Part shown: positions 26,236-38,628 of the stretch, piece after piece
Layout of the letters: each line of letters opens with the position of its first letter
Position numbering within the stretch: the first letter of the stretch is position 1
NCBI RefSeq assembly: GCF_001659705.1
Contig: NZ_CP015971.1
Location: 3,103,029 to 3,167,028 of the forward strand
Length of the DNA stretch: 64,000 nucleotides
Direction of reading: 5' to 3'
Origin: Arachidicoccus sp. BS20
GTDB lineage: Bacteria; Bacteroidota; Bacteroidia; Chitinophagales; Chitinophagaceae
Made by a program: the position numbers and the translations under genes
Notes under the pieces: generated by a model
Databases searched by the model: none
Told to the model about the DNA's origin: nothing
What the model saw: only the letters and a program-made list of their open reading frames with translations

Positions 26236-26260
26236 ATTAAATTGTTTTATAAGATTTTAA

Positions 26261-26293
26261 AAAGCCGCTTTCAAGATAGAAGCGGCTTTTTTG
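26261..26293 (+). terminator. Terminator of the act-cta block
   Basis: AAAGCCGCTT (26261-26270) pairs with AAGCGGCTTT (26280-26289) around a 9-nt loop, followed by a T-run. The right half and following bases are repeated near 27674-27700 ahead of small-ORF copy 3. Confidence 0.85.
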
Positions 26294-26332
26294 TTTTCTG
26301 CAATATTTTCTCACGTACGGTAACAGGAAAAC

Positions 26333-26475
26333 TTATTCATTTCCACACTTGTCTTTTGCAATCTTATTTTTACCCGCCCTGCGTTCTTTGTGCCAGTAAT
26401 GTTTTTTCCAATATTAACACAGGTGCTTTTTCCATTCTCCACTTACGGTAAGCAAGCCTTTTGCTTGTGCGACAT
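26333..26475 (-). pseudogene. Broken copy of the small basic protein gene (copy 1)
   Basis: This interval aligns base for base with the intact copies at 27152-27289 and 27722-27865. It lacks one A in the early A-run, which shifts the frame after MSHKQK and gives a stop at codon 11. It also has a second stop where the others read LRKYW. The length is 143 bp against 144 in copy 3. The flank with the act-cta terminator is repeated at copy 3. Confidence 0.7.
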
Positions 26476-26497
26476 GACTGTATTTTTTCCGCAATTA

Positions 26498-26839
26498 TTA
26501 CGGTTGATTTTTTAAAACGGTTATTTGCTCCAAAAGGTCGGGAAGCCGGTATTGGATAGTGTCCCAAACAATGTTTTGATTGATGCCGAAATAATCGTGT
26601 ATAATAAAGTTTCGGAAATCTTTTATAATGCGCCATTCTACTTGAAGATGCTGTAACTTAAACGCTTGCGGAACTCTTGAAGCAGCTTCGCCTATGATTT
26701 CAAAATTCCGTTCTACGGCATATCTTGTTTTTACGTCGGCTTGGTATTCGTCCAGGTGCATTCCTTTGGTAAACTCCATAATGTAGTTTATAGAGCTTGA
26801 CGTATCTTCCAACAGCAAGGATAATGCTCTTTCAGACAT
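26498..26839 (-). CDS. hepT: HEPN-domain toxin (HepT/DUF86)
   Basis: A 113-residue all-helical HEPN ribonuclease-type toxin. The active motif is RNFIIHDY (Arg about 76, His 81, Tyr 83), an RX4HXY form. In characterised type VII systems the Tyr is AMPylated by the MntA partner. It overlaps the mntA end by 8 bp, as typical of the pair. The pair sits between copies of a repeated small gene, which suggests that it was acquired or moved. Confidence 0.88.
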   Translation of the reverse strand: MSERALSLLLEDTSSSINYIMEFTKGMHLDEYQADVKTRYAVERNFEIIGEAASRVPQAFKLQHLQVEWRIIKDFRNFIIHDYFGINQNIVWDTIQYRLPDLLEQITVLKNQP

Positions 26840-27125
26840 GGATGAGGCTTTTTTCTACAAAGGGCAAATATTTAGGCTGTACGCCTTGGCGGGAAACAAG
26901 GTCTATCTTGGTATTGAAAGTATCTTCCAGCGCATGGGCTATTCTTATGTAATCAAAACCGTCTATGCGGGCGTTGAAATCTACAAGTATATCAATATCA
27001 CTATGCTCATTATAATCGCCGCGGGCATAAGAGCCGAACAAGCCCATTTCCGAAATGGGATATTTTTTTTCCAACTCGGCTTTTTTGGCTTTGAGAATAT
27101 TTAGTATTTCGCCCGTTGTGTACAT
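26832..27125 (-). CDS. mntA: MNT-type nucleotidyltransferase antitoxin
   Basis: A 97-residue minimal nucleotidyltransferase. The motif GSYARGDYNEHSDID (residues 31-45) satisfies GSX10DXD, and a third Asp is present in FNTKIDLVSRQG. Proteins of this type neutralise HepT by adding AMP to its tyrosine. It is the first gene of the minus-strand pair and overlaps hepT. The start MYTTGEILNILKAKK is the only sensible one. Confidence 0.88.
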   Translation of the reverse strand: MYTTGEILNILKAKKAELEKKYPISEMGLFGSYARGDYNEHSDIDILVDFNARIDGFDYIRIAHALEDTFNTKIDLVSRQGVQPKYLPFVEKSLIHV

Positions 27126-27151
27126 ACTGCAAAGTTATTTAAAAGTTCTTA

Positions 27152-27289
27152 CTATTTTTCTTTGTCTTTTGCAATCTTTTCTTTGCCTGCTCTGCGCTCT
27201 TTGTGCCAGTAATGTTTTTTCCAATATTTACGCAGATGCTTTTTCCATTCTTTGCTTACGGTAAGCAAGCCTTTTTGTTTGTGCGACAT
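27152..27289 (-). CDS. Small basic protein, 45 residues (copy 2, intact)
   Basis: Starts MSHKQKGLLTVSKEWKKHL and continues with RKYWKKHYWHKERRAGK, ending in KDKEK. It is very rich in Lys, His, Trp and Arg. Compared with copy 3, many of the base changes are synonymous (Ser TCG/TCT, Lys AAA/AAG, Glu GAG/GAA, Arg AGA/AGG, Ala GCA/GCT). That argues for a real, selected protein. There is no signal peptide or membrane segment. I do not recognise the family; nucleic acid or ribosome binding is only a guess from charge. The leader shared with copies 3 and 4 precedes it. Confidence 0.65.
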   Translation of the reverse strand: MSHKQKGLLTVSKEWKKHLRKYWKKHYWHKERRAGKEKIAKDKEK

Positions 27290-27330
27290 GATTATGATTT
27301 TTTAAGGAATTACTTACTGTGTTTACGCAG

Positions 27331-27397
27331 CTTCGGTACGTGTCTCTCGTACCGAAACTATGTGAGTGGTTCGTGCGGACACGAACCACGGCGGTAA
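27331..27397. repeat. Two-hairpin element, copy 1
   Basis: The first hairpin is TTCGGTACG with CGTACCGAA (27332-27356). The second is GTGGTTCGTG with CACGAACCAC around CGGA (27366-27389). It ends in GGCGGTAA, at which point an apparent 3' fragment of a plus-strand gene begins. Confidence 0.75.
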
Positions 27398-27540
27398 AGA
27401 CCAACATCATAGGGAAGAAACGCCCTATTAATAAGGATCAGATGCGGGATAACGTGGAAGCGTTCATGCATCAGCGCAAAAATGACAAAAAGCAGGTGCA
27501 AAAATATTTTCATGCAGAGCACGTCAGATATGCAGCGTAG
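27398..27540 (+). pseudogene. Apparent 3' remnant of an unknown gene
   Basis: The plus frame reads GKKRPINKDQMRDNVEAF and on to a stop at 27538-27540, about 46 residues of plausible, charged, helical protein. Upstream it runs into the two-hairpin element rather than a start codon. The only start in frame lies in repeat sequence. I infer a gene truncated at its 5' end by the element. Its family is not recognised. Confidence 0.4.
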
Positions 27541-27572
27541 AGGATTTATCTGCAATAGTTAAGACTTTTCCC

Positions 27573-27672
27573 CCGCATAGTCTCCTTGTATAGCTTTGTG
27601 TGTTTGCCAAGGGACTTTGCGGCTATTGGTTTATCGTTGCGTAAAGTCCCCTGCGGGAGACTGTGCGGAGAA
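27573..27672. repeat. Large imperfect inverted repeat with a second copy of its right half near 34.1 kb
   Basis: The left half has CCGCATAGTCTCC and AAGGGACTTTGCGG (27573-27622). The right half has GCGTAAAGTCCCC and GGGAGACTGTGCGG (27639-27668), which is their inverted form. About 48 bp of the right side (27625-27672) recur nearly unchanged at 34097-34145. Confidence 0.65.
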
Positions 27673-27721
27673 GAAAGCGGCTTTTTTATTTTTATGTAAT
27701 ATTTATTAGTAACCGGAAAAC

Positions 27722-27865
27722 TTATTTATTTCCACGCTTGTCTTTTGCAATCTTATTTTTGCCAGCCCTGCGTTCTTTGTGCCAGTAATGTTTTTTCCAA
27801 TATTTACGCAGATGTTTTTTCCATTCTCTGCTTACGGCAAGCTGGCCTTTTTGCTTGTGAGACAT
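27722..27865 (-). CDS. Small basic protein, 47 residues (copy 3, intact)
   Basis: Starts MSHKQKGQLAVSREWKKHL and continues RKYWKKHYWHKERRAGK, ending DKRGNK. It differs from copy 2 at a few positions (L8Q, T10A, K13R and the C-terminal tail). The DNA upstream of the start (27866-27975) is almost identical to that upstream of copy 4, including a two-hairpin element. Function unknown. Too basic and short for a membrane or secreted protein by eye. Confidence 0.65.
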   Translation of the reverse strand: MSHKQKGQLAVSREWKKHLRKYWKKHYWHKERRAGKNKIAKDKRGNK

Positions 27866-27907
27866 GATTTATAATTTTTAAGGAATTACTTATCTGTGTT
27901 TACGCAG

Positions 27908-27975
27908 CCTCGGTACGTGAGACGCGTACCGAAACAATGTAAGCGGTTCGTGCGGACACGAACCGCGGCGGCAGG
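27908..27975. repeat. Two-hairpin element, copy 2
   Basis: The first hairpin is CGGTACG with CGTACCG (27911-27931). The second is GCGGTTCGTG with CACGAACCGC around CGGA (27943-27966). It carries the paired change GC/GC instead of GT/AC in the stem, compared with copy 1. It ends in GGCGGCAGG. Confidence 0.75.
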
Positions 27976-28044
27976 TATAGTTTTAAATTTTTAAATGGTA
28001 AATGAATGTTTAATTGCTCAATTATGTTTTTGTTATTTGCTGCC

Positions 28045-28186
28045 CGTCATCCCGAAGGGATGATACGTTTATAGCAAAAACGAGGATGATGCAGGTTCGA
28101 CCCCATAGGGGTCGTATGTTCGTCGCAATATTTCTGCTATAAACATACCACTCCGTTGGAGTGGGAAAACCTATGCTGTTTCCGCT
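28045..28186. repeat. Series of short CC-N3-GG palindromes
   Basis: Three hairpins follow each other at about 50-bp spacing: CATCCC-GAA-GGGATG (near 28048), CGACCCC-ATA-GGGGTCG (near 28100) and CCACTCC-GTT-GGAGTGG (28148-28164). Outer arms GTTTATAGCAAAAAC (near 28067) and ATTTCTGCTATAAAC (near 28130) also pair. The last hairpin plus the following GGAAAAC/GTTTCC hairpin recurs at 28427-28466. Confidence 0.6.
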
Positions 28187-28248
28187 CCGGTATGTGTATT
28201 CACGTTGCCGGAATGGCTGGTTCGTGCGGACACGAACCACGGCGGTAA
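28185..28248. repeat. Two-hairpin element, copy 3
   Basis: A CCGGTATGTG/CACGTTGCCGG hairpin is followed by TGGTTCGTG-CGGA-CACGAACCA (28218-28239). It ends in GGCGGTAA, exactly where the truncated small-ORF copy 4 begins. Confidence 0.75.
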
Positions 28249-28313
28249 TATTTACGCAGATGCTTTTTCCATTCTCCGCTTACGGTAAGCAAGCCTTTTT
28301 GCTTGTGAGACAT
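28248..28313 (-). pseudogene. Truncated copy of the small basic protein gene (copy 4)
   Basis: The first 22 codons (MSHKQKGLLTVSGEWKKHL and RKY) match the intact copies. At the 28248 boundary the sequence passes into the two-hairpin element. A chimeric frame continues to a TGA at 28200-28202 but encodes repeat sequence. Its 5' leader is intact and matches that of copy 3. Confidence 0.65.
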
Positions 28314-28354
28314 TGGTTATGATTTTTAAGGAATTACTTACTGTGTTTACGCAG

Positions 28355-28422
28355 CCTCGGTACGTGAGACGCGTACCGAAACAATGTAAGCGGTTCGTGC
28401 GGACACGAACCGCGGCGGCAGG
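28355..28422. repeat. Two-hairpin element, copy 4
   Basis: Nearly identical to copy 2, with hairpins CGGTACG/CGTACCG and GCGGTTCGTG-CGGA-CACGAACCGC (28390-28413), ending in GGCGGCAGG. It is part of a roughly 110-bp duplicated block shared with 27866-27980. Confidence 0.75.
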
Positions 28423-28465
28423 TATATACCACTCCAGCGGAGTGGGAAAACCTATGCTGTTTCCG

Positions 28466-28529
28466 CCCCGGTACGTGTATTCACGTTGCCGGAATGTGTG
28501 GTTCGTGTCCGCACGAACCACGGCGGTAA
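28466..28529. repeat. Two-hairpin element, copy 5
   Basis: The first hairpin is CCGGTACGTG/CACGTTGCCGG. The second is GTGGTTCGTG-TCCG-CACGAACCAC (28498-28521), whose loop is the reverse complement of that in the other four copies. It ends in GGCGGTAA, at which point the truncated ATP-grasp-like gene begins. Confidence 0.75.
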
Positions 28530-28724
28530 ACTTCCTCTTGTACAATTATATAGTCCGTCATGCTCTGTAGGCACAGGTAAATTTGAAAAATCTGTTATTG
28601 CTTCATCCATGAGGCAAAATTGAATGTTGTACTTTTGGCAAGCCTTCTCCAATGAAGCTAATCTTGCTGCAACATTTAGGCTGTCAGTTGTTTGGCTGTT
28701 GTATATGCAATAAAACTGGGACAT
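28530..28724 (-). pseudogene. 5' fragment of an unknown enzyme gene, possibly a RimK-like ATP-grasp ligase
   Basis: About 64 codons remain, starting MSQFYCIYNSQTTDSLNVAARL and ending GLYNCTRGS, where the two-hairpin element replaces the rest. The frame then reads repeat DNA until 28452. The alternating Rossmann-like pattern and the DGLYNCTRGS end remind me of the N-terminal domain of RimK/ATP-grasp peptide ligases, but this is a weak match by eye. It starts 10 bp after the second GNAT gene and was probably the last gene of that operon. Confidence 0.5.
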
Positions 28725-28734
28725 TTAAAACATT

Positions 28735-29244
28735 TTATACGGGTCTAATCATAAATATTTTTTGAAACTTGTTGCTCCCTTTTTTCGACGGCGGAATAAT
28801 GCCGATTTCAATCCAACCTGTTTGAGATGTTATCTTTCTTGCTGCTTCGTTTGTAAGTGAAACAAATCCTATAATGTATTCTAAAGAACTTTTTTCTGCT
28901 TCCTGAATTACAAAGTCAAGAAGCAATTTGCCCAAACCATCAGACCGTATATTTTTTGAAATGTATGTGCTGCTTTCGGCATAAATATTTTCTTTGACCG
29001 GATGAGAAATGCACTTTATTAAAGATTGCCAGCCTAAAACTTTGTCTTCTTCATCAACAGCCACCCAAAAATTAAATATACCTTCTCGTTGAAAAAAGTT
29101 TGATGAGAATTTTTTCTTTACGGTATCTAAATCAATATTATCGTCTTCAAATGAATTATAGATACCTTCAAGCCAAATGGAAAATATTTGTTCAAAATCT
29201 TCGTCTTCAGCTAATCGTATTTTTATGTTTTGTGCTGTTATCAT
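28735..29244 (-). CDS. GNAT family N-acetyltransferase (second of a tandem pair)
   Basis: A 169-residue acetyltransferase. The acyl-CoA binding motif is NIRSDGLGKLLLDFVIQ (R/Q-x-x-G-x-G/A form), followed by an EYIIGFVSLTNEAARKITSQTGW strand-helix typical of the GNAT fold. It shares with the preceding gene the N-terminal pattern (IRLAEDEDFEQIFSIW) and the VLGWQSL and SSTYI blocks, so the two are tandem paralogues. The ATG begins immediately after the stop of the first GNAT gene. The substrate is unknown. Confidence 0.8.
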   Translation of the reverse strand: MITAQNIKIRLAEDEDFEQIFSIWLEGIYNSFEDDNIDLDTVKKKFSSNFFQREGIFNFWVAVDEEDKVLGWQSLIKCISHPVKENIYAESSTYISKNIRSDGLGKLLLDFVIQEAEKSSLEYIIGFVSLTNEAARKITSQTGWIEIGIIPPSKKGSNKFQKIFMIRPV

Positions 29245-29790
29245 TTAATGGTTTTGTTTATTAGTTTCATAAACTAAAAAATCCCAATCAGGGAAATGAA
29301 GATTGTTATTTTTTGGAAGTGTCCCCATATTATAGAAACCGATTTCGTCACACATTTTCAAACTTTTTTTATTTTCAGTAAGTACAATGCCAAAAACATA
29401 TTTTATATCGCTGTGATTTTTGCAATAATTTAAAGCGTGGCGCAAAAGCAATTTCCCAATTCCTTTTCCTTGAAACTCTTTCCTTACATAGGTACTTGAT
29501 TGTCCAAAGCTTGATTTCACTATTGGATTGGGCGAAACATGAAATGGTAATATTGATTGCCAACCTACAATTTTGTTATCAAGAGAAAGGCATATCCAGA
29601 ATTTAAAGTCTTGTGTTTGCTGTTGAATTTGATGAAGAAATTCTTTCTTCAAGCTATCTATTTGTAAGTGATTTTCATCTACAACTGAACCTTGCTCTAA
29701 AACACCTTGTTGCCATATTATTGCAATATCATCCACATCGCTACTTGTGGCTGAGCGAATTATCCAATTGTTTGTTTCAACTTGTGTCAT
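29245..29790 (-). CDS. GNAT family N-acetyltransferase (first of a tandem pair)
   Basis: A 181-residue acetyltransferase with the clear coenzyme A loop RKEFQGKGIGKLLLRHALNYC and the following VLTENKKSLKMCDEIGFYNMG segment. It begins VETNNWIIRSATSSDVDDIAIIWQ and contains KIVGWQSILPF, which matches its downstream paralogue. It starts 1 bp after the MaoC-like gene, so the set is probably translated from one message. It may modify an amine on a product of this operon, but no substrate can be read. Confidence 0.8.
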   Translation of the reverse strand: MTQVETNNWIIRSATSSDVDDIAIIWQQGVLEQGSVVDENHLQIDSLKKEFLHQIQQQTQDFKFWICLSLDNKIVGWQSILPFHVSPNPIVKSSFGQSSTYVRKEFQGKGIGKLLLRHALNYCKNHSDIKYVFGIVLTENKKSLKMCDEIGFYNMGTLPKNNNLHFPDWDFLVYETNKQNH

Positions 29791-29791
29791 A

Positions 29792-30205
29792 CTACTTGTA
29801 ATATTTTTTGTTCATTAAAAACGCTTCGCCGGTTACTTTAATTTCGCCTGTTTGCTTTTCGATAATTTCATTGATATAACAAACTCTGTTTTTGTCAGGA
29901 AAAAATTCTTTGGTGGTAAAAATTGCCGTGTATTCTATTCCTGTAAAAACAGGTTTTATATACCTCGCTGTTTGGCTTATTAAAATATGTTCTTCGGGAT
30001 AAAGCAATGTGCCATATACTTTTGAAAAAATACTAATGCTGAAATATCCGTGAACGATACAGCGTTTAAAATTCGTTTGTTCTGCATATTGCTCGGACAC
30101 GTGTATAGGATTTGTATCTCCGGAAATATTGGCATAAGCCAATACTTGTTCATGGGTAAAGATGAAGTCGTGCTTAAAAATGTCGCCGATTTTTGGTTTT
30201 GTCAT
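29792..30205 (-). CDS. MaoC-like hotdog-fold hydratase
   Basis: About 137 residues from the ATG at 30203-30205 (MTKPKIGDIFKHDFIFTHEQV). That start overlaps the TGA of the acyl-CoA dehydrogenase gene as ATGA; an upstream in-frame ATG would add 21 residues inside that gene. The hotdog hydratase motif is ANISGDTNPIHVSEQYAEQ, with the catalytic Asp and His, followed by RCIVHGYFSISIFSKV. Such enzymes hydrate enoyl thioesters. Next to an acyl-CoA dehydrogenase, it could act on the enoyl product. Confidence 0.85.
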   Translation of the reverse strand: MTKPKIGDIFKHDFIFTHEQVLAYANISGDTNPIHVSEQYAEQTNFKRCIVHGYFSISIFSKVYGTLLYPEEHILISQTARYIKPVFTGIEYTAIFTTKEFFPDKNRVCYINEIIEKQTGEIKVTGEAFLMNKKYYK

Positions 30206-31329
30206 TTCCATATTTCTTTTAGAATGATTAATTGTTGAATTTCGCTTGTGCCTTCGCCAATGGTGCAAAGCTTAGCATCGCGGTAATATTTTTCTATCAA
30301 ATAGTCTGTTGTATAGCCATAGCCGCCCAGAATTTGCACAGCATCATTAGCCGTTTTTACAGCCAGTTCAGAAGCAAAAAATTTACACATGGCACTTTCT
30401 TTTGTTGTACTTAATCCTGCATCTTTTTTAGCACAAGCATCTTTCAGCATTAATTCGGCTGCATATAATTCTGTTGCTGTTTGAGAGAGCTTAAAACCTG
30501 TTGCCTGGAAGTCAATAATCTTTTTTCCAAACTGTTCTCTTTGTTTTGCATACTGCAATGCAATTTGATATGCGCCTTTTGCAATGCCGAGCGATAAGGC
30601 TGTAATAGAAATACGTCCGCCGTCTAAGATTTGCATGGCTTGTCTAAAACCCTCGCCGGCGTTTCCCACTCTGTTACTATCGGGAACAATGCAGTTGTCG
30701 AAAAACAGTTGTACGGTTTCGCAGGCTTTCATACCTAATTTGTCAAGCGGCTTGCCTGCGCTGAACCCTTTTGTTCCTTTCTCCACAAGAAACGCGGTTA
30801 TATTATTTTTCTCGTTTCCTGTTTTTGCAAGCACCACCACTACCTGTGCCGATGCGCCTTGTGTAATAAATATTTTACTACCGTTCAACACCCAGCTGTT
30901 ACCGTCAAAAACCGCGTTACATTGCAAGCTTACAGCATCGCTGCCGGCACTTGGTTCGGTTAATGCCCATGCGCCCAAGTATTCGCCCGAAGCAAGTTGC
31001 GGAAGATATTTTGCTTTTTGCATATCGCTCCCGAACTGTACAATATGCCTGCTGACTAAAGAATTGTGCGCAGCAATAAATAATCCTACAGAACCACAGA
31101 CTTTAGATATTTCAATGATGGCTTGCGTATAAGTATGGTAGTCCAACGCGGTTCCGCCGTATTCTTCGGGAATCTGCATACCTAAGAAACCTGCTTTGCC
31201 TAATTCTTCGTATAACCATTTTGGGAAAGCGCCTGCTTTGTCCCAAGCGAGTACATTTGGGCGAATATACTTTGTTGCAAATTGCTTGCAGAAATCGATA
31301 AATTGTTGTGTGTGGGCATTATGAAGCAT
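30202..31329 (-). CDS. Acyl-CoA dehydrogenase
   Basis: A 375-residue flavoprotein with full-length acyl-CoA dehydrogenase architecture. It includes GFLGMQIPEEYGGTALDYHTY, the signature GAWALTEPSAGSDA, FITQGASAQVVVV, the helical domain with QREQFGKKIIDFQ, and the C-terminal signature with catalytic Glu in LGGYGYTTDYLIEKYYRDAK followed by IGEGTSEIQQLIILK. It probably forms an alpha,beta-double bond on a short or branched acyl-CoA. It is the first gene of a five-gene, tightly spaced minus-strand operon whose last member is broken. Confidence 0.93.
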   Translation of the reverse strand: MLHNAHTQQFIDFCKQFATKYIRPNVLAWDKAGAFPKWLYEELGKAGFLGMQIPEEYGGTALDYHTYTQAIIEISKVCGSVGLFIAAHNSLVSRHIVQFGSDMQKAKYLPQLASGEYLGAWALTEPSAGSDAVSLQCNAVFDGNSWVLNGSKIFITQGASAQVVVVLAKTGNEKNNITAFLVEKGTKGFSAGKPLDKLGMKACETVQLFFDNCIVPDSNRVGNAGEGFRQAMQILDGGRISITALSLGIAKGAYQIALQYAKQREQFGKKIIDFQATGFKLSQTATELYAAELMLKDACAKKDAGLSTTKESAMCKFFASELAVKTANDAVQILGGYGYTTDYLIEKYYRDAKLCTIGEGTSEIQQLIILKEIWK

Positions 31330-31414
31330 ATTATTGTATATTTTTAGTGTCGTTTACTTTATTCATATTAAATGCGAAGGCACTCAGCACTGTTGAAAAT
31401 AAGGAATATTGCCA

Positions 31415-32221
31415 CTACTTATTGCTGTTGCTTGAGTTAAAGGATAGGGCAGTTAATCCTAAAGCCACACCGAAACCAATCCAAGGTTTTAATCCATGTT
31501 TTCCATTGTTTTCTGTCCAATATTTTGCATTAGCGCCTATGGCGTTATCGAAGCCTAATGCCAATGTAAATCCTAAATGATTAATAGAATATATTCCATT
31601 TATACCATAGCTTATAGCAGCAATATTATCTTTTGTCATTACTTTTCCATTGGTATTGGCACTATCTAATGCTTGCTGGGAAAATGCGAGAAATACACCT
31701 GTCCCCCAATAATGCTCTCGAGGATTGATTTGTGTCTTTTTAAAATATTTAGCCTTACCCCAAATTTTAAGAAAATTGACACCAGTATTTAGAAACTGTG
31801 CTTCTAAATCGGAATTTTTTTCTAGTCTATACCTAAAAGGTATATTTAAAGGGGTAAATGCCCAACTTGAAAATGGAATTGTAAAAGAAATGCCATTAAC
31901 CCAATCACTTTTTTGTATAATGTAGGCAAAAGAAGAATCGTTATCGCAAGAATTGATAATATCTTTATTTTGTTTAAAACTATCATAGTTTTTATTTATG
32001 TCCCAGAAATTAATAAGTAAGGTATCTCCTAAACGTTTAGAAACGAACCCCTTTAGGTTATGGGCTATATGGCGAGGTGTGGAATCTATTTTTCCATTAA
32101 TTACTTCATGTAGAACGCCAAATTTACATTTGGAGAAGTTACTGTGTAGTTGATAAATATTTTGTGCGTTTACAATGCTCAACACAGTGAGAAAGATACA
32201 GATAAACAAATATTTTTTCAT
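31415..32221 (-). CDS. Secreted protein of unknown function
   Basis: About 268 residues from ATG 32219-32221 (MKKYLFICIFLTVLSIVNAQ, a classic signal peptide); an ATG three codons upstream is also possible. The mature part has alternating strands and a C-terminal hydrophobic segment (PWIGFGVALGLTALSF) that could be membrane-associated. No family recognised. It is AT-rich. A 35-40 bp leader repeat found ahead of several genes in this region lies just upstream (32238-32279). Confidence 0.55.
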   Translation of the reverse strand: MKKYLFICIFLTVLSIVNAQNIYQLHSNFSKCKFGVLHEVINGKIDSTPRHIAHNLKGFVSKRLGDTLLINFWDINKNYDSFKQNKDIINSCDNDSSFAYIIQKSDWVNGISFTIPFSSWAFTPLNIPFRYRLEKNSDLEAQFLNTGVNFLKIWGKAKYFKKTQINPREHYWGTGVFLAFSQQALDSANTNGKVMTKDNIAAISYGINGIYSINHLGFTLALGFDNAIGANAKYWTENNGKHGLKPWIGFGVALGLTALSFNSSNSNK

Positions 32222-32237
32222 AACAGTCATTTTTTTT

Positions 32238-32279
32238 CGCCTACTCTATAATCCTCTTTTCGGCTTACGAGGTTTTTAT
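32238..32279 (-). repeat. Conserved leader repeat, copy 1
   Basis: On the plus strand it contains GCCTACTCTATAATCCTC and TTTTCGGCTTACGAGG, the core also found at 33903, 34677 and 36187. It lies 17 bp before the start of a minus-strand secreted protein gene. Confidence 0.75.
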
Positions 32280-32314
32280 TTTAATCCTGCAAATCTTTAA
32301 ATCCCAAAATCCCC

Positions 32315-32567
32315 GTTCAGACAACCTCTTTCCACGTTCCGCAATGCTCCGTCGCGGTTCTGAACACATCTCGATACATTGCGAACACCACCCTTGCGGT
32401 TCAAGACCCAAAATTTGCCGTTCGCAACCCCAAAATATAGGCTGCATAACCCTACCGAACACGTTCGCAACCCCTCGCGATAAGTGTATTACAGGTTCAG
32501 ACCATTTCAAGACCCCGTCGGATAGGTTCGGAACGCCAAAATATACGTTCCGAACCTCAAGCCTCCC
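32315..32567. repeat. Degenerate tandem array of twelve 21-bp units
   Basis: Units open with GTTCnnAAC-like sequence at 32315, 32336, 32357, 32379, 32399, 32420, 32441, 32463, 32484, 32505, 32526 and 32547, a spacing of 21 bp with plus or minus one. A common unit form is GTTCGCAACCCCAAAATATAG. In one minus frame it reads as seven-residue repeats such as VPNLSDG and VLKWSEP. A hairpin, CCCCTTA/TAAGGGG (32565-32587), closes it beside the stop of the next gene. This fills the 371-bp gap between genes; I see no convincing gene in it. Confidence 0.7.
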
Positions 32568-32592
32568 CTTAAATCCCTCATAAGGGGGAAAA

Positions 32593-33084
32593 TTACTGAC
32601 CCGCACCATCCGCAGGCGGTGTAACAGGGCTTGCGGATTTTGCAAAGAACTGTTTCAAATCGTCGTACTTGGTTTCAAAACCGGGCGCAGATGTACCGGC
32701 TTTGTACGAAGTATAAGCATAATCGGTCAACGCTGCCTGATAGTTGTCGTAGTCATGCAGCGTTTTGGCATTATCGAGGCGTGTGTGCAGGCTGTCGAGC
32801 CTTGCTATGAGCGCTTCATAACTTTGGCGGCTTGCGAAATCTGCCGTAAACTCCGTCCAGTCCACTTCGGGAGAGGAAAGTGCGGGCTGGCTCGTGTTGT
32901 AATCGTTTACCTTGTTTACAAACAATTTGTTCTGCTCGTTGATGCTGCCGTACTTGCGGCGGTCATCTGCCGTAAGGTTTATATTGATTACGGCGAGTGT
33001 TGTTTCGAGTTGCGTAAGCGCATCCTGTGCAGCCGTTAATTGCTCTGCTGTGAGGTGCAGGTTGTTGAGATTGGTAATTGGCAT
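32593..33084 (-). CDS. Helical protein of unknown function
   Basis: A 163-residue soluble protein, almost entirely helical with heptad-like stretches (LTAEQLTAAQDALTQLETTL, YEALIARLDSLHTRLDNAKT) and a Pro-rich C-terminus (SPVTPPADGAGQ). The segment DRRKYGSINEQNKLFVNKVNDY looks like a conserved block. I believe similar proteins occur in many Bacteroidota, but I cannot name the family. No signal peptide. The gap upstream (33085-33294) holds AT-rich sequence with nothing I can assign. Confidence 0.6.
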   Translation of the reverse strand: MPITNLNNLHLTAEQLTAAQDALTQLETTLAVININLTADDRRKYGSINEQNKLFVNKVNDYNTSQPALSSPEVDWTEFTADFASRQSYEALIARLDSLHTRLDNAKTLHDYDNYQAALTDYAYTSYKAGTSAPGFETKYDDLKQFFAKSASPVTPPADGAGQ

Positions 33085-33294
33085 AGCTTGAAATTTTTAA
33101 ATGGTTAATTGTTTTTTTAATTATTCATTTTTATTATTTGAGAAGGAGAAAATTGTATTGACATGATAAATGGTGTTCTTTGTGCTTTCTTAAAACTTGA
33201 AATACTGCAGGATTTTGTAAATCTTGTTTTATCTGCTGTTCCGGGATGCGCTGCGCTAACATCATGAACAGCGTTGATGGAATCATTTATCCTT

Positions 33295-33765
33295 TTAACA
33301 GTTACAAGTAAAAACTATTCTATTTGCTTCATTAAAACTATGTGCTTTCTTAGTATCAGGCTTTCTTGTTTCATCCCAACGTTTGATTACATTTCCATCA
33401 TGAATATCAAAGTGAAAATGTTCTCTCCACAATTCTACATTGTTTGCATTATAACATATTATGTAGCCATCCCATTCGTCGCCAGAATCGCTACTTTTAA
33501 TGTTGCACCTCCAATTAATTGCTCCATTAGCATATAGGGTAAACGTTGCTCCTGAAAAAATTGTACAGTCTCCTTTTCTTATTTCCTGAAAAGCAAAAGA
33601 TTTATGAGGCATTTGAATGTTCCTATTAAAAAGTGCTATACTTTCTTTTTTATTGAATTTAGATATAACAAAACTTTTTGGTATTGTAGCATTGTCATTC
33701 AATGCAGTTATTTTGTTTAATGGTAAACAAAATAAAATCACGGCAAAAGAAACATATACTTTCAT
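33295..33765 (-). CDS. Secreted beta-rich protein, resembling DUF6294
   Basis: A 156-residue protein with a signal peptide (MKVYVSFAVILFCLPLNKITA) and a beta-rich domain. The block KGDCTIFSGATFTLYANGAI, then SSDSGDEWDGYIICYNANNVELW, resembles what I recall of DUF6294 proteins (GDCT, GATxTLYxDG, SSDxxDxW). The match is by memory and should be treated as tentative. Two cysteines at the C-terminus (FTCNC) and one in GDCT could form a disulfide. A degenerate leader repeat (near 33786) precedes it. Confidence 0.55.
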   Translation of the reverse strand: MKVYVSFAVILFCLPLNKITALNDNATIPKSFVISKFNKKESIALFNRNIQMPHKSFAFQEIRKGDCTIFSGATFTLYANGAINWRCNIKSSDSGDEWDGYIICYNANNVELWREHFHFDIHDGNVIKRWDETRKPDTKKAHSFNEANRIVFTCNC

Positions 33766-33785
33766 TGTTTTAATTTTTTAATTTT

Positions 33786-33945
33786 TGCCTACTCTGTTCA
33801 GTTTTCGGCAACTCTGTTGCGTACTTTATTTTTTGGTGTCGTTGTTCCGCATTTGTTCGACTTTGGGTTGTAAGCCCGCTTTATTACAGATTTTTATTTT
33901 AATTTGCCTACTCTTTATTCCTCTTTTCGGCTTACGAGGTTTATA
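33786..33945 (-). repeat. Two leader repeats, one degenerate (near 33786) and one good (33903-33945)
   Basis: The copy at 33903-33945 keeps the full core (GCCTACTCTTTATTCCTC, TTTTCGGCTTACGAGG). The copy near 33786 keeps TTGCCTACTCTGTTCAG and TTTTCGGCAAC only. They flank a stretch without genes, after the stop of a Sel1-repeat remnant. Confidence 0.6.
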
Positions 33946-33962
33946 ATTTTTTACTCTTACAT

Positions 33963-34096
33963 TTAATTGTTGCCCGCTGCTTGTGCAGCCTTTTGATACC
34001 AGTATTTTGCTTTGGAATATTTGCGCAAGGGATAATTTTCATAATGTTCTCCCAATTTGAACATAGCATGAGCTTCGCTAATATTCCGAACAGCGT
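33963..34096 (-). pseudogene. C-terminal remnant of a Sel1-repeat protein
   Basis: The minus frame ending at the TAA at 33963-33965 reads AHAMFKLGEHYENYPL then RKYSKAKYWYQKAAQAAGNN. This is the Sel1/TPR-like repeat pattern (A-x-x-x-L-G-x-x-Y ... A-x-x-W-Y-x-K-A-A). No start codon is in frame before the sequence merges with the 48-bp repeat at 34097-34145. It is a truncated gene. Confidence 0.6.
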
Positions 34097-34145
34097 GATT
34101 GGTTTATCGTTCCGCAAAGTCCCCTGCGGGAGACTGTGCGGAGAA
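34097..34145. repeat. Second copy of the 48-bp GTCCCC/GGGAGAC repeat
   Basis: Matches 27625-27672 with very few changes, including TTGGTTTATCGTT, AAAGTCCCCTGCGGGAGACT and GTGCGGAGAA. It abuts the truncated end of the Sel1-repeat remnant. The gap from 33766 to 34232 is therefore made of leader repeats, this remnant and this repeat. Confidence 0.75.
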
Positions 34146-34232
34146 TGAAATATTTATTCCAGCCCAATTAAATTGTTCAGCTTTATTTATTTTACAGCAC
34201 ACCACATAAGTAACATGCGATGTGCTGCATCT

Positions 34233-34658
34233 TCATATCTTATGTTGCGCCGGACATAGCTTTCCTATTCCTTGTTGCAAAAAGAATTTGATAATTACTT
34301 TTACAAGACTCTTCACAAAGACCCCGAGAGGAATAATATGAGCTATTGCTTCTAAAACAAAATCAATAATTTTTCCGGCAATACTATCGCCCTGAATAAT
34401 TGAACAGAAAATCTTTTTTAACTCATCCCAAAGATTTATTTTATTTATACCACTAATACTTAGAGCAATCATGTTTGCGTGAGTATTGTTGCTCCAGAAT
34501 CTTTCACTCATTTGTTTCGTCGCTGAAAGATATAAATTAGCCAATGCTTCCTGAGCATCTTGCTCGGTAACAGCACCATCGCCCAAGCCTTCGGCGAGTA
34601 TTTCATTTGCAAAAGCAGAAGTATCTACCAATTGCAAGGCTTCATTTCTTACTAACAT
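34233..34658 (-). CDS. Small protein with a hydrophobic C-terminal half, unknown
   Basis: A 141-residue protein. Residues 1-75 are acidic and helical (EILAEGLGDGAVTEQDAQEAL). Residues 85-135 are hydrophobic and amphipathic (IAGKIIDFVLEAIAHIIPLG, VFVKSLVKVIIKFFLQQG), followed by a short tail with Cys. This could form a membrane-active helix pair. There is no signal peptide. No family recognised. A leader repeat copy precedes it (34677-34714). Confidence 0.5.
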   Translation of the reverse strand: MLVRNEALQLVDTSAFANEILAEGLGDGAVTEQDAQEALANLYLSATKQMSERFWSNNTHANMIALSISGINKINLWDELKKIFCSIIQGDSIAGKIIDFVLEAIAHIIPLGVFVKSLVKVIIKFFLQQGIGKLCPAQHKI

Positions 34659-34676
34659 AATTTTAGGTTTTTATTT

Positions 34677-34714
34677 TGCCTACTCTATAATCCTCTTTTC
34701 GGCTTACGAGGTCT
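34677..34714 (-). repeat. Conserved leader repeat, copy 3
   Basis: Full core (GCCTACTCTATAATCCTC, TTTTCGGCTTACGAGG). It begins directly after the stop of the 34716-35585 gene and ends 19 bp before the start of the next minus-strand gene, so it marks the gene junction. Confidence 0.75.
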
Positions 34715-34715
34715 T

Positions 34716-35585
34716 TTATTGAATGTGATAAGTAATCGGCGTTATAAGTTGTTCATTATTTCCGTCCTGATGATTTAATTGGTCTTGTATTTTTAAAGTC
34801 AGGTCTGTTTTGGCTTGTCCTCTGTCATGGTTATTGCCCGAAGTAGAAGCCGTTACAGTTCTTATATCGCCTGTTTTAAAGTTTTGTACTTTGGCAGATG
34901 CAGTACCGCTGTATGTGTGATTTCCTATACTGTACACACCTGCGGAATCTATGCTATAATGAATGGATGTTTCTAATGTAACGCCAAGCGTTTTTATTTT
35001 TGTGCGTAAGTAACTTTGAGCTTCTCCTATATTACTGTGGTTGCAATCTTCTGTCGCCACACGATAATATTCATTGCCTTTGCTGTTTTTTACTTTTACA
35101 TAAGCACTGCCACCGTAAAACATTTTTGTTTTTGCGGTCTTAGAAGCGTTAATGGTAAATTCGGTTACAGAACGGTCAAACGCTGGGTCTGCCCACCCTC
35201 CAATCAAAAACGAACGAAATCCTACTGCATCTTCCTTGTTTTCAAATTCCAGTTCAGGATTGGATATTCTCTTTGTGTTAGTAGTATCAATGTCAATACT
35301 ATAGTTTGTTGCATTTATACCTTTATCAGCTAGTGTTTTAATTGCAGCACTGCGTAAAGCATCTCTTGTTCCAAAATCATACATGTCTAATACATTGCTT
35401 ACATATACTACTTTAAAATTATTAGTACTCATAACTATAAAACAATACTTTATTTTTGTAGAATTATCAGCCATATTTTGAGTTGGTGCAGCTAAAGCTT
35501 TTCGGGCAAGGTGTGTTTGTCCAAAACTGACTTGTATTCCCGTAAGGAATAACAGAGTACATAAAATGGTAATTGATTTTTTCAT
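34716..35585 (-). CDS. Secreted beta-rich protein of unknown function
   Basis: A 289-residue protein with a signal peptide (MKKSITILCTLLFLTGIQVSFGQ). The mature part appears to hold two similar halves with strand-rich sequence (KMFYGGSAYVKVKNSKGNEYY; GNHTYSGTASAKVQNFKTGD), each followed by an Asn/His-rich turn and a helix (DCNHSNIGEAQSYLRTKIKT; GNNHDRGQAKTDLTLKIQDQL). This hints at an internal duplication. No family recognised. It would be exported to the periplasm or beyond. Confidence 0.6.
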   Translation of the reverse strand: MKKSITILCTLLFLTGIQVSFGQTHLARKALAAPTQNMADNSTKIKYCFIVMSTNNFKVVYVSNVLDMYDFGTRDALRSAAIKTLADKGINATNYSIDIDTTNTKRISNPELEFENKEDAVGFRSFLIGGWADPAFDRSVTEFTINASKTAKTKMFYGGSAYVKVKNSKGNEYYRVATEDCNHSNIGEAQSYLRTKIKTLGVTLETSIHYSIDSAGVYSIGNHTYSGTASAKVQNFKTGDIRTVTASTSGNNHDRGQAKTDLTLKIQDQLNHQDGNNEQLITPITYHIQ

Positions 35586-35666
35586 TGATATTTAAAATTT
35601 TAGTGTGTTAAAAAATGTTTTTGAGATTAAGTCATAGCCACCATAGCGACTATGACTTTCGATTTT

Positions 35667-36167
35667 TTAATTGATTTTAATGTAATAATAAACGGCTACA
35701 TTTCTCGGGCGTGTTTCTGAGTTAATCCCATTTCCACTATTATCTGTAGTATAGGTTTTGTTTCCCTGCCGAGAATTTGATTCAAATCCATAGCCATTAA
35801 ATCCACTACCACCACTCGCTTCTAAAAAATGTCCAATAACATTATGAGCGTGCTGACCTATCGTATCTGGCTGATAATCATTGGCTGTTCTGTTAGCTCC
35901 GTCTGGGTCGCCGTGCGTATTCGGATCAAATGGTAAAGGTTGCCCTACACTATAAATCGTATTTAACCCCCGTAAGAACTTGCCTCGTAAATCAGGTGCA
36001 TTTATTTGCCCTGTATTTCGATTTAAGCAGGAATTTTGAATAGAGCGACCATCGCATGGTGCATAAGAAGAATGTGGCGCACTAAATACCGCAGCTTCTC
36101 TGATTTCTTGGGTAAGCTGGTCATAGCTCAAAATAGACGCTATGATTGTTCCTAAAATGTCTGACAT
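35667..36167 (-). CDS. Phage tail-collar-like domain protein
   Basis: A 166-residue protein. The segment APDLRGKFLRGLNTIYSVGQ and the end RPRNVAVYYYIKIN are hallmarks of the tail collar/tail fibre C-terminal fold, also found in the microcystin-dependent MdpB-like family. A Gly-rich, His-containing middle (TIGQHAHNVIGHFLEASGGSG) is typical too. No signal peptide is seen and no other phage genes are present, so it is either a lone exported adhesin-like protein or a relic. Leader repeat copy 4 precedes it. Confidence 0.75.
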   Translation of the reverse strand: MSDILGTIIASILSYDQLTQEIREAAVFSAPHSSYAPCDGRSIQNSCLNRNTGQINAPDLRGKFLRGLNTIYSVGQPLPFDPNTHGDPDGANRTANDYQPDTIGQHAHNVIGHFLEASGGSGFNGYGFESNSRQGNKTYTTDNSGNGINSETRPRNVAVYYYIKIN

Positions 36168-36186
36168 AATTGATAATTTTTTATTT

Positions 36187-36225
36187 CGCCTACTCTATAT
36201 CCTCTTTTCGGCTTACGAGGTTGTT
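36187..36225 (-). repeat. Conserved leader repeat, copy 4
   Basis: Core GCCTACTCTATATCCTC (one base shorter) with TTTTCGGCTTACGAGG, ending 20 bp before the start of the tail-collar-like gene. The 695-bp gap from here to the LuxR gene holds no convincing reading frame. Confidence 0.75.
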
Positions 36226-36522
36226 GAATAATGAATTAATTGTTTTATTGTTTTTGGTCTGTTTCATATTTTTTTCGTCACAGTTTTTTCAATGAGCATC
36301 ATCGTGTTTTGTATCAGCCGGTCGTTTGCCAAAGGCAAGCGCATCGTGCATTTTCTCAATCGTTATCAAAATTATTTTCATTTTACTCAACAGCAATACC
36401 ATCAAGTGGGTATTTTGTGAGTAGTCCCGGGACTATGCTGCCGGTTCTGTTTTTCAATGCTAATCTTGTATGCTGCATCTACTATGCAAAGCTACTATGA
36501 CCGGTATGGCAAAGTCAAGCGT

Positions 36523-36600
36523 AGAAATACGGTATTTTACCCCCGTATTTTTACGGGGGCAGGGGGAGTAAAAACCCCCTCCCTGAATACCGTAAAAACA
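36523..36600. repeat. Nested G/C-rich hairpins in the gap before the LuxR-type gene
   Basis: CCCCCGTA/TACGGGGG (36540-36560) lies next to GGGGGAGT-AAAA-ACCCCCT-like pairing. Outer arms AATACGGTATTTTAC and GAATACCGTAAAAA enclose both. These could be operators or a terminator; the sequence does not decide. Confidence 0.55.
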
Positions 36601-36809
36601 CGTATTTTTTGCAATCATGGTTGCCGCTTTTAGCATTGGCAAATTCCACAATATACATGCGGGCGCATACATTGCCTGGGCAGCAACAATCAATTGTTTT
36701 ACAGACATTTATGCCAATATTTTTTTCGTTCTTAGAGTGCCTGTACATATCTTTCCGCTGATAATAATAGATAATACTGCAAATGTAAAATGACTGTTAT
36801 CCTCAATCA

Positions 36810-36827
36810 ATCCTCATTTATGAGGAT
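36810..36827. promoter_or_regulatory. Perfect 18-bp palindrome, candidate operator
   Basis: ATCCTCAT-TT-ATGAGGAT, with a further half-site TTATCCTCA at 36797-36805. It lies directly upstream of the -33 element of the LuxR-type gene, a fitting place for autoregulation. Confidence 0.55.
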
Positions 36828-36834
36828 AAAATCG

Positions 36835-36865
36835 TTGGTATTTTTGAAAGTATTTTCTAAATTTG
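36835..36865 (+). promoter_or_regulatory. Promoter of the LuxR-type gene (TTG-N20-TAAATTTG)
   Basis: TTG at 36835-36837 and TAAATTTG at 36858-36865 match the Bacteroidota consensus with a 20-bp spacer. The -7 element covers the alternative TTG start at 36863, which supports the ATG at 36884 as the true start. Confidence 0.65.
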
Positions 36866-36883
36866 GAGTGTAAACGACCGGTT

Positions 36884-37681
36884 ATGCCTGCTTATAAAAA
36901 GTTCTCATACTCATACGAAGGATATCTGCGGGAGATTTATTACGACAAAGAGCAATCTGATGAACATGATGTTCTGGAGTTGTTTGCCAAGCTGCAAGGT
37001 TTTGCCAATACGGGATTTGGGGCGCTCCCATTACTTTTTATCATAGATTACAGAAAGCGGGAATATATTTTATACTCCGATGCCGTTCGCCAGATAGCGG
37101 GCTATCATCCGCGCGATTTTTTGGATTCCGGGCTGGAGATGCTTTTGTATGTTTACCAGAAAGACGATTTTAAAATTTATAACGAAAAAATCTTTTCCCG
37201 CAACTGTGAATTTCTCCGGTCCATACCACAAAGCGAGCACGAGAACTATTTGTTTTCTTACACATTTCGCATTAGCGATGCAAAAGGAAAGCATCAGCAA
37301 ATATGGCAAAGAGGTAGTTATATTACTTCGCCGGAAACGGGACTTCCATTATATTCTTTGGGCATTTGCCTTAACCTTACGGCTGTGAAAACAGATACCC
37401 GCATGGTACACACGATTGAGAAAATGAATAGAAACAGCCCTGCCAATTTAATGATGGAAACCAATTATTTCTTCCCCAACGAAGAAGACAAATTGTTTTC
37501 AAAAAGAGAAAAAGAAGTATTGCTGTACATGGCAGACGGGCTTTCTACCAAGCAAATTGCAGATAAAATGCGCGTTGCAGATACAACCGTTATTACCTAC
37601 CGGAAAAAAATGATGGAAAAATCCAATACTAAAAATACTGCTGCATTGATAGCCTACAGTACACAAAACAGAATAATTTAG
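36884..37681 (+). CDS. LuxR-type transcriptional regulator with N-terminal PAS-like domain
   Basis: About 265 residues from ATG 36884 (MPAYKKFSYSYEGYLREIYY). The N-terminal 170 residues contain a PAS-like segment (PLLFIIDYRKREYILYSDAVRQIAGYHPRDFLDSG, and a PAC-like part). The C-terminal helix-turn-helix is FSKREKEVLLYMADGLSTKQIADKM, then ADTTVITYRKKMMEKSNTKNTAALI, the classic GerE/LuxR form. There is no response-regulator receiver. It faces away from the minus-strand orphan genes and could control them, though that is inference. The hydrolase gene starts 6 bp after its stop. Confidence 0.85.
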   Translation: MPAYKKFSYSYEGYLREIYYDKEQSDEHDVLELFAKLQGFANTGFGALPLLFIIDYRKREYILYSDAVRQIAGYHPRDFLDSGLEMLLYVYQKDDFKIYNEKIFSRNCEFLRSIPQSEHENYLFSYTFRISDAKGKHQQIWQRGSYITSPETGLPLYSLGICLNLTAVKTDTRMVHTIEKMNRNSPANLMMETNYFFPNEEDKLFSKREKEVLLYMADGLSTKQIADKMRVADTTVITYRKKMMEKSNTKNTAALIAYSTQNRII

Positions 37682-37687
37682 ACAGTT

Positions 37688-38497
37688 ATGCAAAAGATAC
37701 TTTTTTATCACGGCGGTCCCGGGCTTAACGGCAATCCGGAACGCAACCTGCTGGCGTCTATGTACAAAACCGCGAATTTGGATTTGCAGGTTTGGGATGA
37801 GCCTTCGCTATTGAGAGGCACTTTAAAAGAGTTGAACACACGCACGCATTTTGAGCAATTGCTGCATAGCGCAGAAGACTTTCTGTTACAGCACTATGAC
37901 GGAACGCCGCTGCATTTATTCGGAAGCAGCTGGGGCGCCCAAGTGGTTGCATGGCTTCAACAAAATCATAGTGATAAAGTCGCTTCAATAATTTTGTCTG
38001 CCCCTTGTTTTGATATATACAAAGCCGACCATAATATTTTCACTTTTATTGCGCAAGATTACAAGGGAAATAATGATGATAGTAATTTTGAAAAAATGCA
38101 GCAAGTAATTGAACGTTTATCCGGCTCATTCGATGATAATGCAATAAAAGGCTGGGAGCTGGCATTGGCAAATCCGGGATTTTTAAATTATTACTGGACA
38201 AACACAGAAGCACAGGCAAAATATCTTGCCAACTTTATAGCACCCGAATATGGATTTGATATCGAAAATTTTTTCGCCGTAAGAAAATCTATGACCGATA
38301 TACATATCATTCCTACCTCGACAAAAACAATTATTGTATATGGTGCGCGTGACAAGATTGTAATCATACCGGAAGAAATGGATTTTATAAAAGAAAAGTT
38401 TCCCCGTCATGTAATATACAGGCTGGAGCATTCGTCTCATTATCCGCATATTGAAGAAGCGCAGCGTGTGGCGGATATAATAGCTGCCGAAGTATAA
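37688..38497 (+). CDS. Alpha/beta hydrolase
   Basis: A 269-residue cytoplasmic hydrolase. The oxyanion motif HGGPG near residue 8 resembles proline iminopeptidase-like (S33) enzymes. The nucleophile elbow is LFGSSWGAQV (Ser near residue 80). The acid is probably Asp in IIVYGARDKIVI, and the catalytic His is in LEHSSHYPHIEEAQ. The substrate is unknown. It begins 6 bp after the LuxR-type gene, so the two are probably co-transcribed. It could process a signal sensed by that regulator, but nothing in the sequence proves this. Confidence 0.85.
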   Translation: MQKILFYHGGPGLNGNPERNLLASMYKTANLDLQVWDEPSLLRGTLKELNTRTHFEQLLHSAEDFLLQHYDGTPLHLFGSSWGAQVVAWLQQNHSDKVASIILSAPCFDIYKADHNIFTFIAQDYKGNNDDSNFEKMQQVIERLSGSFDDNAIKGWELALANPGFLNYYWTNTEAQAKYLANFIAPEYGFDIENFFAVRKSMTDIHIIPTSTKTIIVYGARDKIVIIPEEMDFIKEKFPRHVIYRLEHSSHYPHIEEAQRVADIIAAEV

Positions 38498-38628
38498 ATA
38501 CAAAATCTTAAAATCCTTTTTCAAAATTGTTTTATCAAAATTATGTAGGACTTTTGCCACGAAATCAATTCTAAGCAAAAAATCGAAATGCTTTTGACTT
38601 TTGCTTTCTTATCTTTATCGGAATTGTA

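Follow-up and report, generated by a model that had tools for sequence, protein, structure and literature searches.

The stretch analyzed here (the window) comprises 64,000 nucleotides of the Arachidicoccus sp. BS20 chromosome (contig NZ_CP015971.1, positions 3,103,029 to 3,167,028) and carries five copies of a two-hairpin element. These units are REPINs, i.e. inverted pairs of repetitive extragenic palindromic (REP) hairpins with their GCC foot pointing outward. With limits taken from the GC foot to the GGC foot, copies 1 to 5 are located at window positions 27330-27392, 27907-27969, 28184-28243, 28354-28416 and 28465-28524. Copy 1 consists of a GCT foot, a GGTACG..CGTACC hairpin, a spacer, the right hairpin GGTTCGTG-CGGA-CACGAACC and a GGC foot; the sequence of copy 4 is identical to that of copy 2. 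There are five instances of the right hairpin, GGTTCGTG-N4-CACGAACC, in the window and no further copy at up to three mismatches, against 0.07 expected from shuffles, which rules out chance palindromes and bears out the number of copies given in the initial annotation (made from the letters and open reading frames (ORFs) of the window). That annotation further assigned a GGTACG-type left hairpin to each copy; this is clean in copies 1, 2 and 4 but imperfect in copies 3 and 5, and in copy 3 it is degenerate to the extent that our covariance model R1 (described below) detects the right hairpin only. The shared edge GGCGGTAA is indeed present in copies 1, 3 and 5, and the reverse-complement loop noted for one copy is found in the right hairpin of copy 5 (TCCG against CGGA). 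An Rfam scan yielded no family at the REPIN site at the gathering threshold.

The hairpin is not restricted to this locus. Its exact pattern is present at 17 places in the single-contig genome of 3,492,500 bases, against none for a reversed control pattern. Model R1, whose training set of 21 hairpins from this genome is necessarily recovered and whose E-values are rough, gives 80 matches at E<=10; after removal of 24 rows that represent the opposite strand of hairpins already listed, 56 distinct hairpins were retained by hand, 41 of them at 25 bits or more. Neighbouring hairpins at most 60 nt apart are oriented with the foot outward, as in a REPIN, in 15 of the 18 pairs. Because 56 distinct hairpins are dispersed across the genome, the copies are more than the local tandem duplication that the initial annotation had named as the outcome speaking against its own reading.

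A single REP has the consensus 5'-GCC-NY-GGTNCGTG-TCYN-CACGNACC-RN, with stems of 8-10 bp that are mostly perfect and a TCYN loop that is strand-specific. Of the 21 aligned hairpins of this genome, 19 carry a GCC foot, one carries GCT and one (L008) neither of these; the foot is therefore not the GTAG or GTGG of canonical GT[AG]G REPs. Directly outside the 144 distinct GCC feet of a wider hairpin set, G is rare (1% at -1 and 3% at -2) and pyrimidines are frequent. Paired changes within the stem, from which it had been concluded that the fold rather than the sequence is kept, are confirmed in the same 21 hairpins: both sides change in four of the ten pairs while 97.1% of cells retain pairing, and the covariation score of 0.245 exceeds the shuffled mean of 0.088 (none of 500 shuffles reaches it) as well as all slid versions (at most 0.061). 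Loop inversion between near-identical copies is seen within the window (28500-28519, copy 3 against copy 5) and between C1:1314258 and C1:1848543, where 200 nt on one side of the inverted loop are 100% identical. Such inverted loops among copies with near-identical flanks are stem-loop inversion events.

A transposase carrying the same hairpins in its flanks, which the initial annotation had proposed to look for, is found in the same genome. An intact REP-associated tyrosine transposase (RAYT, of the HUH/Y1 type) of 186 amino acids is encoded at C1:1131055-1131612, about 2 Mb from the window. This gene is flanked by a GCC hairpin at either end, at distances of no more than 42 nt and 48 nt, both with their feet outward. 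A second copy (C1:3225018-3225574) shows the same hairpin frame; this copy is decayed, being spread over two frames with a stop. In total, five Y1_Tnp matches are obtained in this genome at E<=10. The intact protein contains the HuH motif NHVH at position 65, WQ at 121 and YLHNNP at 142, and the resulting HuH-Y distance of 77 falls within the range of 74-77 seen in RAYTs where both motifs were found (the median of subclass 2.6 of the TnpAREP enzymes is 82). It matches the NCBIfam model NF047646 (REP_Tyr_transpos) with an E-value of 2.3e-17 and 63.2 bits, the latter below the cut-off of 80. For a Pedobacter relative the predicted structure (pLDDT 86.6) has TnpAREP 4er8 as its best fold in the PDB (E 3.8e-7, TM 0.65/0.70), which is the E. 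coli TnpAREP with its REP hairpin. Since the hairpin is genome-wide and the RAYT is framed by that same hairpin, as are relatives in other families, the assignment to REPs of the RAYT class proves right. The IS200/IS605 class, offered as the other option, is contradicted by the protein: judged on motifs alone, the DH[VI]H and Y[IV]ENQ of TnpA IS200 (subclass 1.1) are absent and NHVH and YLHNNP are found instead. The statement that the window contains no transposase holds for the RAYT, of which there is no match, but not for the remnant of an IS630-family transposase discussed below.

The other Y1 genes (L018-L020) were rejected as partners of the family, as a single hairpin of this type was found across the three loci. 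One of these, L020 (C1:2946000-2946239 and flanks), is a Y1 gene with 30% identity to the RAYT (E 1e-11) and has hairpins of its own, CTTCGGAATT/AATTCCGAAG, on both sides; it may be another RAYT that has a REP family of its own.

Framing by hairpins is also observed around RAYT relatives. A search of a genome collection gave 19 loci (Pedobacter, Terrimonas, Cyclobacteriaceae and others), and RAYT matches were obtained in 132 of 298 genomes of the order. With L025 and L027 omitted before counting (these are the same places as L073 and L074), we examined 47 distinct RAYT loci, i.e. 17 of the 19 from the collection and 30 from the order search, including the locus of the genome itself. An oriented hairpin is found within 260 nt of the gene on at least one side in 40 of the 47 loci and on both sides in 33, whereas shuffled flanks would yield 0.1 loci (left side) and 0.18 loci (right side). 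Gene-proximal sequence contains 89 hairpins in 24 kb, versus 5 in 70 kb of distant flanks. The foot was labelled GCC-like (at least two of the three letters, with exact GCC at least once in 30 loci) in 33 cases, YTA-like in six and GTA in one, leaving seven with none. Mapped on a maximum-likelihood RAYT tree the label changes five times versus 11.5 times after shuffling (0 of 200 shuffles as low). This tree holds 45 of the 47 rows (two short ones of less than 140 aa were dropped) and contains near-identical Pedobacter rows that are not independent, as well as several long branches. The foot, GCC or YTA, thus largely follows the RAYT clade.

By hand count, the exact stem with a four-base loop is present in 12 of the 19 genomes whose RAYTs are closest (at least 175 bits) versus 18 of the other 279 genomes of the order. 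In the remaining seven of the 19, a variant is found beside the gene, with other stem letters in four (G019, G011, G133 and G059) and a three-base loop in three (G265, G070 and G237). Stem-loop and GCC tag recur together with the RAYT in Chitinophagaceae, Sphingobacteriaceae and Cyclobacteriaceae. An expanded and modified REP population is seen in genome G221 (L074, L188-L197), which has 113 exact GGTTCGTG/CACGAACC hairpins with a TATA loop in 9 of the 13 listed; those beside its RAYT have extended stems.

Summarizing, the five copies are almost certainly REPINs of a genome-wide family that is served by a RAYT encoded elsewhere in the chromosome. The observations underlying this reading are the family and its orientation, the framing of the RAYT, the recurrence around RAYT relatives and the foot that largely follows the RAYT clade. 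Some results weigh against it. The Pfam Y1_Tnp score of the RAYT is 16.5 bits versus a cut-off of 23, and one of the three other Y1 loci does have one hairpin match. Seven of the 47 RAYT loci have no scored hairpin, although two of these (L081 and L089) carry GGTTCGTG hairpins with three-base loops, which were excluded by the loop filter. Exceptions to the foot rule are L097 (GCC in the far clade), L101 (TCA/TTC in the near clade) and L039 (GTA). No movement was observed, and the comparison with relatives advised in the initial annotation was only partly successful: three sister genomes lack the REPIN at one site elsewhere in the genome (C1:424956, see below), but no clean empty site was found for the copies in the window. 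The locus L058, a MutS-like gene pair, was tried as a further empty-site test and its sister matches cover the REP part only. Finally, the six genomes of the genus have 45 (the genome itself), 19 (G300), 4 (G287), 0, 0 and 0 R1 matches at E<=0.01, whereas a RAYT is found at E<=0.001 in the genome of the window only; the RAYT we had predicted for the REP-rich G300 failed to appear at that threshold. As REPs are present in G300 and G287 without a RAYT (E<=0.001), they can evidently outlive or lack one. The orphan REPs of G300 (L176-L185), which mostly retain their GCC feet, are either relics or have been moved by another agent.

Within the window the REPINs are part of duplicated blocks of which one end coincides with the foot. 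Block A (27162-27394, minus strand) contains a small ORF (27155-27289, 45 aa) and REPIN 1 and ends 2 nt past the GGC foot; it is 91% identical over 232 nt to block B (27738-27971, minus strand), with a small ORF (27725-27865, 47 aa) and REPIN 2. Block D (28247-28418, minus strand) contains a truncated small ORF and REPIN 4, matches 27223-27394 with 92% over 171 nt, and shares homology with block B up to 27979; on its variable side it directly adjoins the REPIN 3 foot. In these three [small ORF + REPIN] copies (91-95% identity) the right ends are within 10 nt of the foot and the left ends vary. A second block type comprises REPINs 3 and 5: block C1 (28145-28248) and block C2 (28426-28529) are 89% identical over 104 nt and both end just past the foot, 5 nt beyond it. 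Comparable arrangements exist elsewhere in the genome. At C1:1052189, 3' of a gene read as ilvC, 151-nt copies with 91% identity are located on both sides of a REPIN, and at C1:424956 a stretch of 55 nt from the end of an upstream gene is repeated right at the REPIN foot. The sister genomes G287, G300 and G180 have a single gene end and no REPIN at the latter position, i.e. an empty site, and the extra DNA is longer than the REPIN.

To quantify these patterns, the left and right flanks of 212 distinct REP elements from the fetched loci were compared, with 680 sites drawn at random from these loci as controls. Direct repeats between the flanks (score of at least 30) are found at 28 of the 212 elements versus 2 of the 680 random sites; if one repeat end must be no more than 12 nt from the REP edge, the numbers are 24 versus 1; the thresholds were chosen after the first cases, all five agree in direction, and elements within arrays are not independent. 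Long target-site duplications, suspected from L043 and L052, were rejected as a general rule: another hairpin bounds the copies in 15 of the 18 cases inspected, which are hence [REP + flank] units, and X-REP-X without a second hairpin remains in three cases (L024, L046 and L043). The sidedness is clearest for single REPs. Among 612 pairs from the same genome, 552 show no flank homology, 50 show it exclusively on the inner side, 5 exclusively on the foot side and 5 on both sides; grouped into 20 families that share a flank, 14 share the inner side only, 2 the foot side only and 4 are mixed. What the 14 inner-side families share consists of RAYT sequence in 6 and of other sequence in 8, so that the non-RAYT support for a foot-sided end (8 versus 2 families) is modest. 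For hairpins with a neighbour (1228 pairs) the counts are 71 inner, 17 foot, 62 both and 1078 none, with 45 of the 62 pairs in the class 'both' stemming from one tandem array (L091). Eight single REPs at L067, L170 and L171 (C1:1292-1305 kb and 1851 kb) have a common inner flank, measured to 255 nt, and share nothing on the foot side; they make up a family of repeats that end in a REP and have a content other than RAYT. Overall, duplicated units tend to stop sharply at the foot, on their outer side, while the other end is variable. A description of such a one-sided sharp duplication end at a REP foot was not found in the open-licence literature.

Gene ends meet REPs because of this tendency of duplicated segments to stop sharply at the foot on one side. 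This agrees in part with the 'recombination hotspot' of the initial annotation, as REP edges do recurrently end duplicated segments, and it bears on the three genes that were reported as cut at REPIN edges. The unknown plus-strand gene at copy 1 turns out to be the C-terminal tail of an IS630-family transposase (27394-27540, plus strand), which starts at the second base after REPIN 1: 48 residues align at 77% with an intact 346-aa gene of G287 (207.8 bits to NF033545), with homology from 27394 onwards. In the genome of the window this tail is the only match of the G287 gene at E<=0.001. The cut at copy 3 is likewise real, given that the fourth small-ORF copy aligns with the others only from 28247. 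The cut at copy 5 is unconfirmed, because the 65-residue piece beside the REPIN 5 foot (28530-28724, minus strand) has no relative in 194 other genomes of the family (195 searched) and no ATP-grasp domain. Its proposed ATP-grasp identity was rejected; the best Pfam match is GxGYxYP_N_2nd (E 0.0017, below the cut-off).

A first small-ORF copy without REPIN is located at 26349-26504 (minus strand, 88% to 27162-27320) and appears to have its frame broken by a missing base. Between this copy and the next, at 26501-27125 (minus strand), we observed a HepT-like (PF01934) and nucleotidyltransferase (PF01909) pair of the HEPN/MNT toxin-antitoxin type. Compared to two of the five sister genomes, G287 and G180, a segment of about 12.4 kb (26236-38628) is extra here. 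With the REPIN cluster at its left end, it separates the gene for cytochrome oxidase subunit IV from the gene at 38629-39462 (read as SCO1), which are directly adjacent in those two genomes. Positions 27564-27672 hold another kind of dispersed repeat, about 110 bp long, with ten copies at 78-80% at C1:1349-1355 kb. Four minus-strand matches to the Rfam DUF805b RNA (RF02914) are located at 32238-32273, 33905-33940, 34677-34712 and 36187-36221, two of which lie just upstream of the minus-strand ORFs 31418-32230 and 35670-36167.

With regard to the mechanism, studies of the E. coli TnpAREP have shown in vitro that it cuts single-stranded REP DNA 5' or 3' of the hairpin. In a Marinomonas enzyme, selection of the cleavage site was demonstrated to be guided by the foot, and the 3'-OH left by cleavage is considered a possible primer (PMC8266576). 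By analogy with these enzymes, the RAYT would bind the hairpin as single-stranded DNA, recognize both the loop strand and the foot, here GCC, and cleave near the outer edge. The REPINs would then represent a non-autonomous, internally deleted form of a REP-RAYT-REP element. The cluster in the window grew by duplication of [flank + REPIN] blocks with one end at the REP foot, and truncated genes abut REP edges for this reason.

What generated the duplications can be explained in several ways. A plain tandem duplication of unrelated gene-end hairpins (terminators, for instance), without any mobile family, would fit the two block types (copies 1, 2 and 4 in one, 3 and 5 in the other) and the position of several genomic hairpins shortly 3' of stop codons; given that dispersed copies have unrelated flanks and that RAYTs are framed in several families, we consider it scarcely tenable. 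A transposase-free origin, by replication slippage or illegitimate recombination where stable hairpins form, is an even bet in our judgement. The bounding of copies by another hairpin in the 15 of 18 cases, as tandem or neighbouring [REP + flank] units, is in line with slippage, the loop inversions in near-identical copies suggest folding and miscopying of hairpins, and tandem repeats of REPIN plus flank are reported as the commonest higher-order arrangement of REPINs in P. fluorescens SBW25 (PMC3116915). Nonetheless, a lone hairpin is nearly symmetrical, and the sharp foot side (14 versus 2 families) is not predicted.

Alternatively, the RAYT itself might make the edge-anchored duplications by cutting at the GCC foot and copying inward from the freed end, across the hairpin and into the flank up to a variable stop, as other HUH systems do. 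The inner-sided families and pairs argue for this, as does the excess of edge-anchored direct repeats over controls, and the cleavage and possible priming described for TnpAREP (PMC8266576) are consistent with it. On the other hand, the 6 of 14 inner-side families that share RAYT sequence would be equally expected from an ordinary transposon end, which leaves a weak 8 versus 2, hairpins with a neighbour are less clear, and many of the duplications are local, as expected from slippage. One-ended copying by the RAYT would account for the sidedness, and slippage accounts for the local duplication but not for the sidedness; we regard the former as possible, though doubtful. The broader proposal that Bacteroidota RAYTs are one-ended copiers from the GCC foot, and that REPs thereby tag, duplicate and truncate neighbouring host genes, is speculative and in our opinion unlikely. 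If true, the REP foot would be the fixed terminus of a machine that duplicates host DNA, and the broken genes in the window would be its footprints.

Compared to IS200/IS605 elements (IS608, ISDra2), the present system has HUH/Y1 enzymes and hairpins at the ends in common, whereas the enzyme has RAYT rather than TnpA IS200 motifs and the hairpins form an inverted pair. Palindrome-associated transposable elements (PATEs) are grouped with IS200/IS605, with HUH/Y1 enzymes and terminal hairpins. REPINs of P. fluorescens have a GTAG-type foot; here the foot is GCC and the duplicated block has one end at that foot. Both share the inverted REP pair as mobile unit, the RAYT nearby and tandem clusters with flanks (PMC3116915). 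Because tandem clusters including flanks were reported for that species in the same study, the clustering of REPINs is not new. The E. coli REPs, or bacterial interspersed mosaic elements (BIMEs), and their TnpAREP (4er8; PMC8266576) are alike in enzyme fold and in the architecture of foot plus hairpin, but have a GTAG foot and a bulged stem, and the protein similarity is barely detectable (phmmer E 1.1). GTAG and CGTC REPs (PMC3733652) are likewise short palindromic sequences, tagged at one end and often present as dimers; the tag here is GCC and, in contrast to the CGTC repeats, a transposase gene is framed by the hairpins.

The open-licence PMC papers on REPs that we found to mention Bacteroidetes are PMC6006769 and PMC3733652; a query with the stem letters in open-licence PMC papers gave matches that, where inspected, look unrelated. 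The closest known system is TnpAREP subclass 2.6, or RAYT group 5, reported mostly from Bacteroidetes and with the motifs NH[LIV]H, WQ and YIH[QN]NP; its 'atypical' flanking structures without GT[AG]G were noted by manual inspection, with copies elsewhere in the genome (PMC6006769). The present family fits this group in its motifs (NHVH, WQ and YLHNNP, with L for I), its Bacteroidetes hosts and its atypical flanking hairpins. Differences are that the structures are called weaker and REP sequences species-specific in PMC6006769, where the GCC motif may already be part of the motif table, whereas here the stems are 8-10 bp with a GCC foot and recur across families. The atypical structures of subclass 2.6 can thereby be described concretely, by a foot of GCC, a stem of 8-10 bp and a strand-specific TCYN loop that recur in at least three families. 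While the best-known REPs have GTAG-type tags, the GCC clade described here, next to a clade with mainly YTA, offers a natural series on how the tag guides cleavage. The foot-anchored duplications, in turn, provide a genomic readout of how RAYTs spread REPINs and a reason for the truncation of adjacent genes. Overall, the kind of element is already known, and what is added here is detail on the recognition tag and on duplicated DNA that ends at the hairpin edge.

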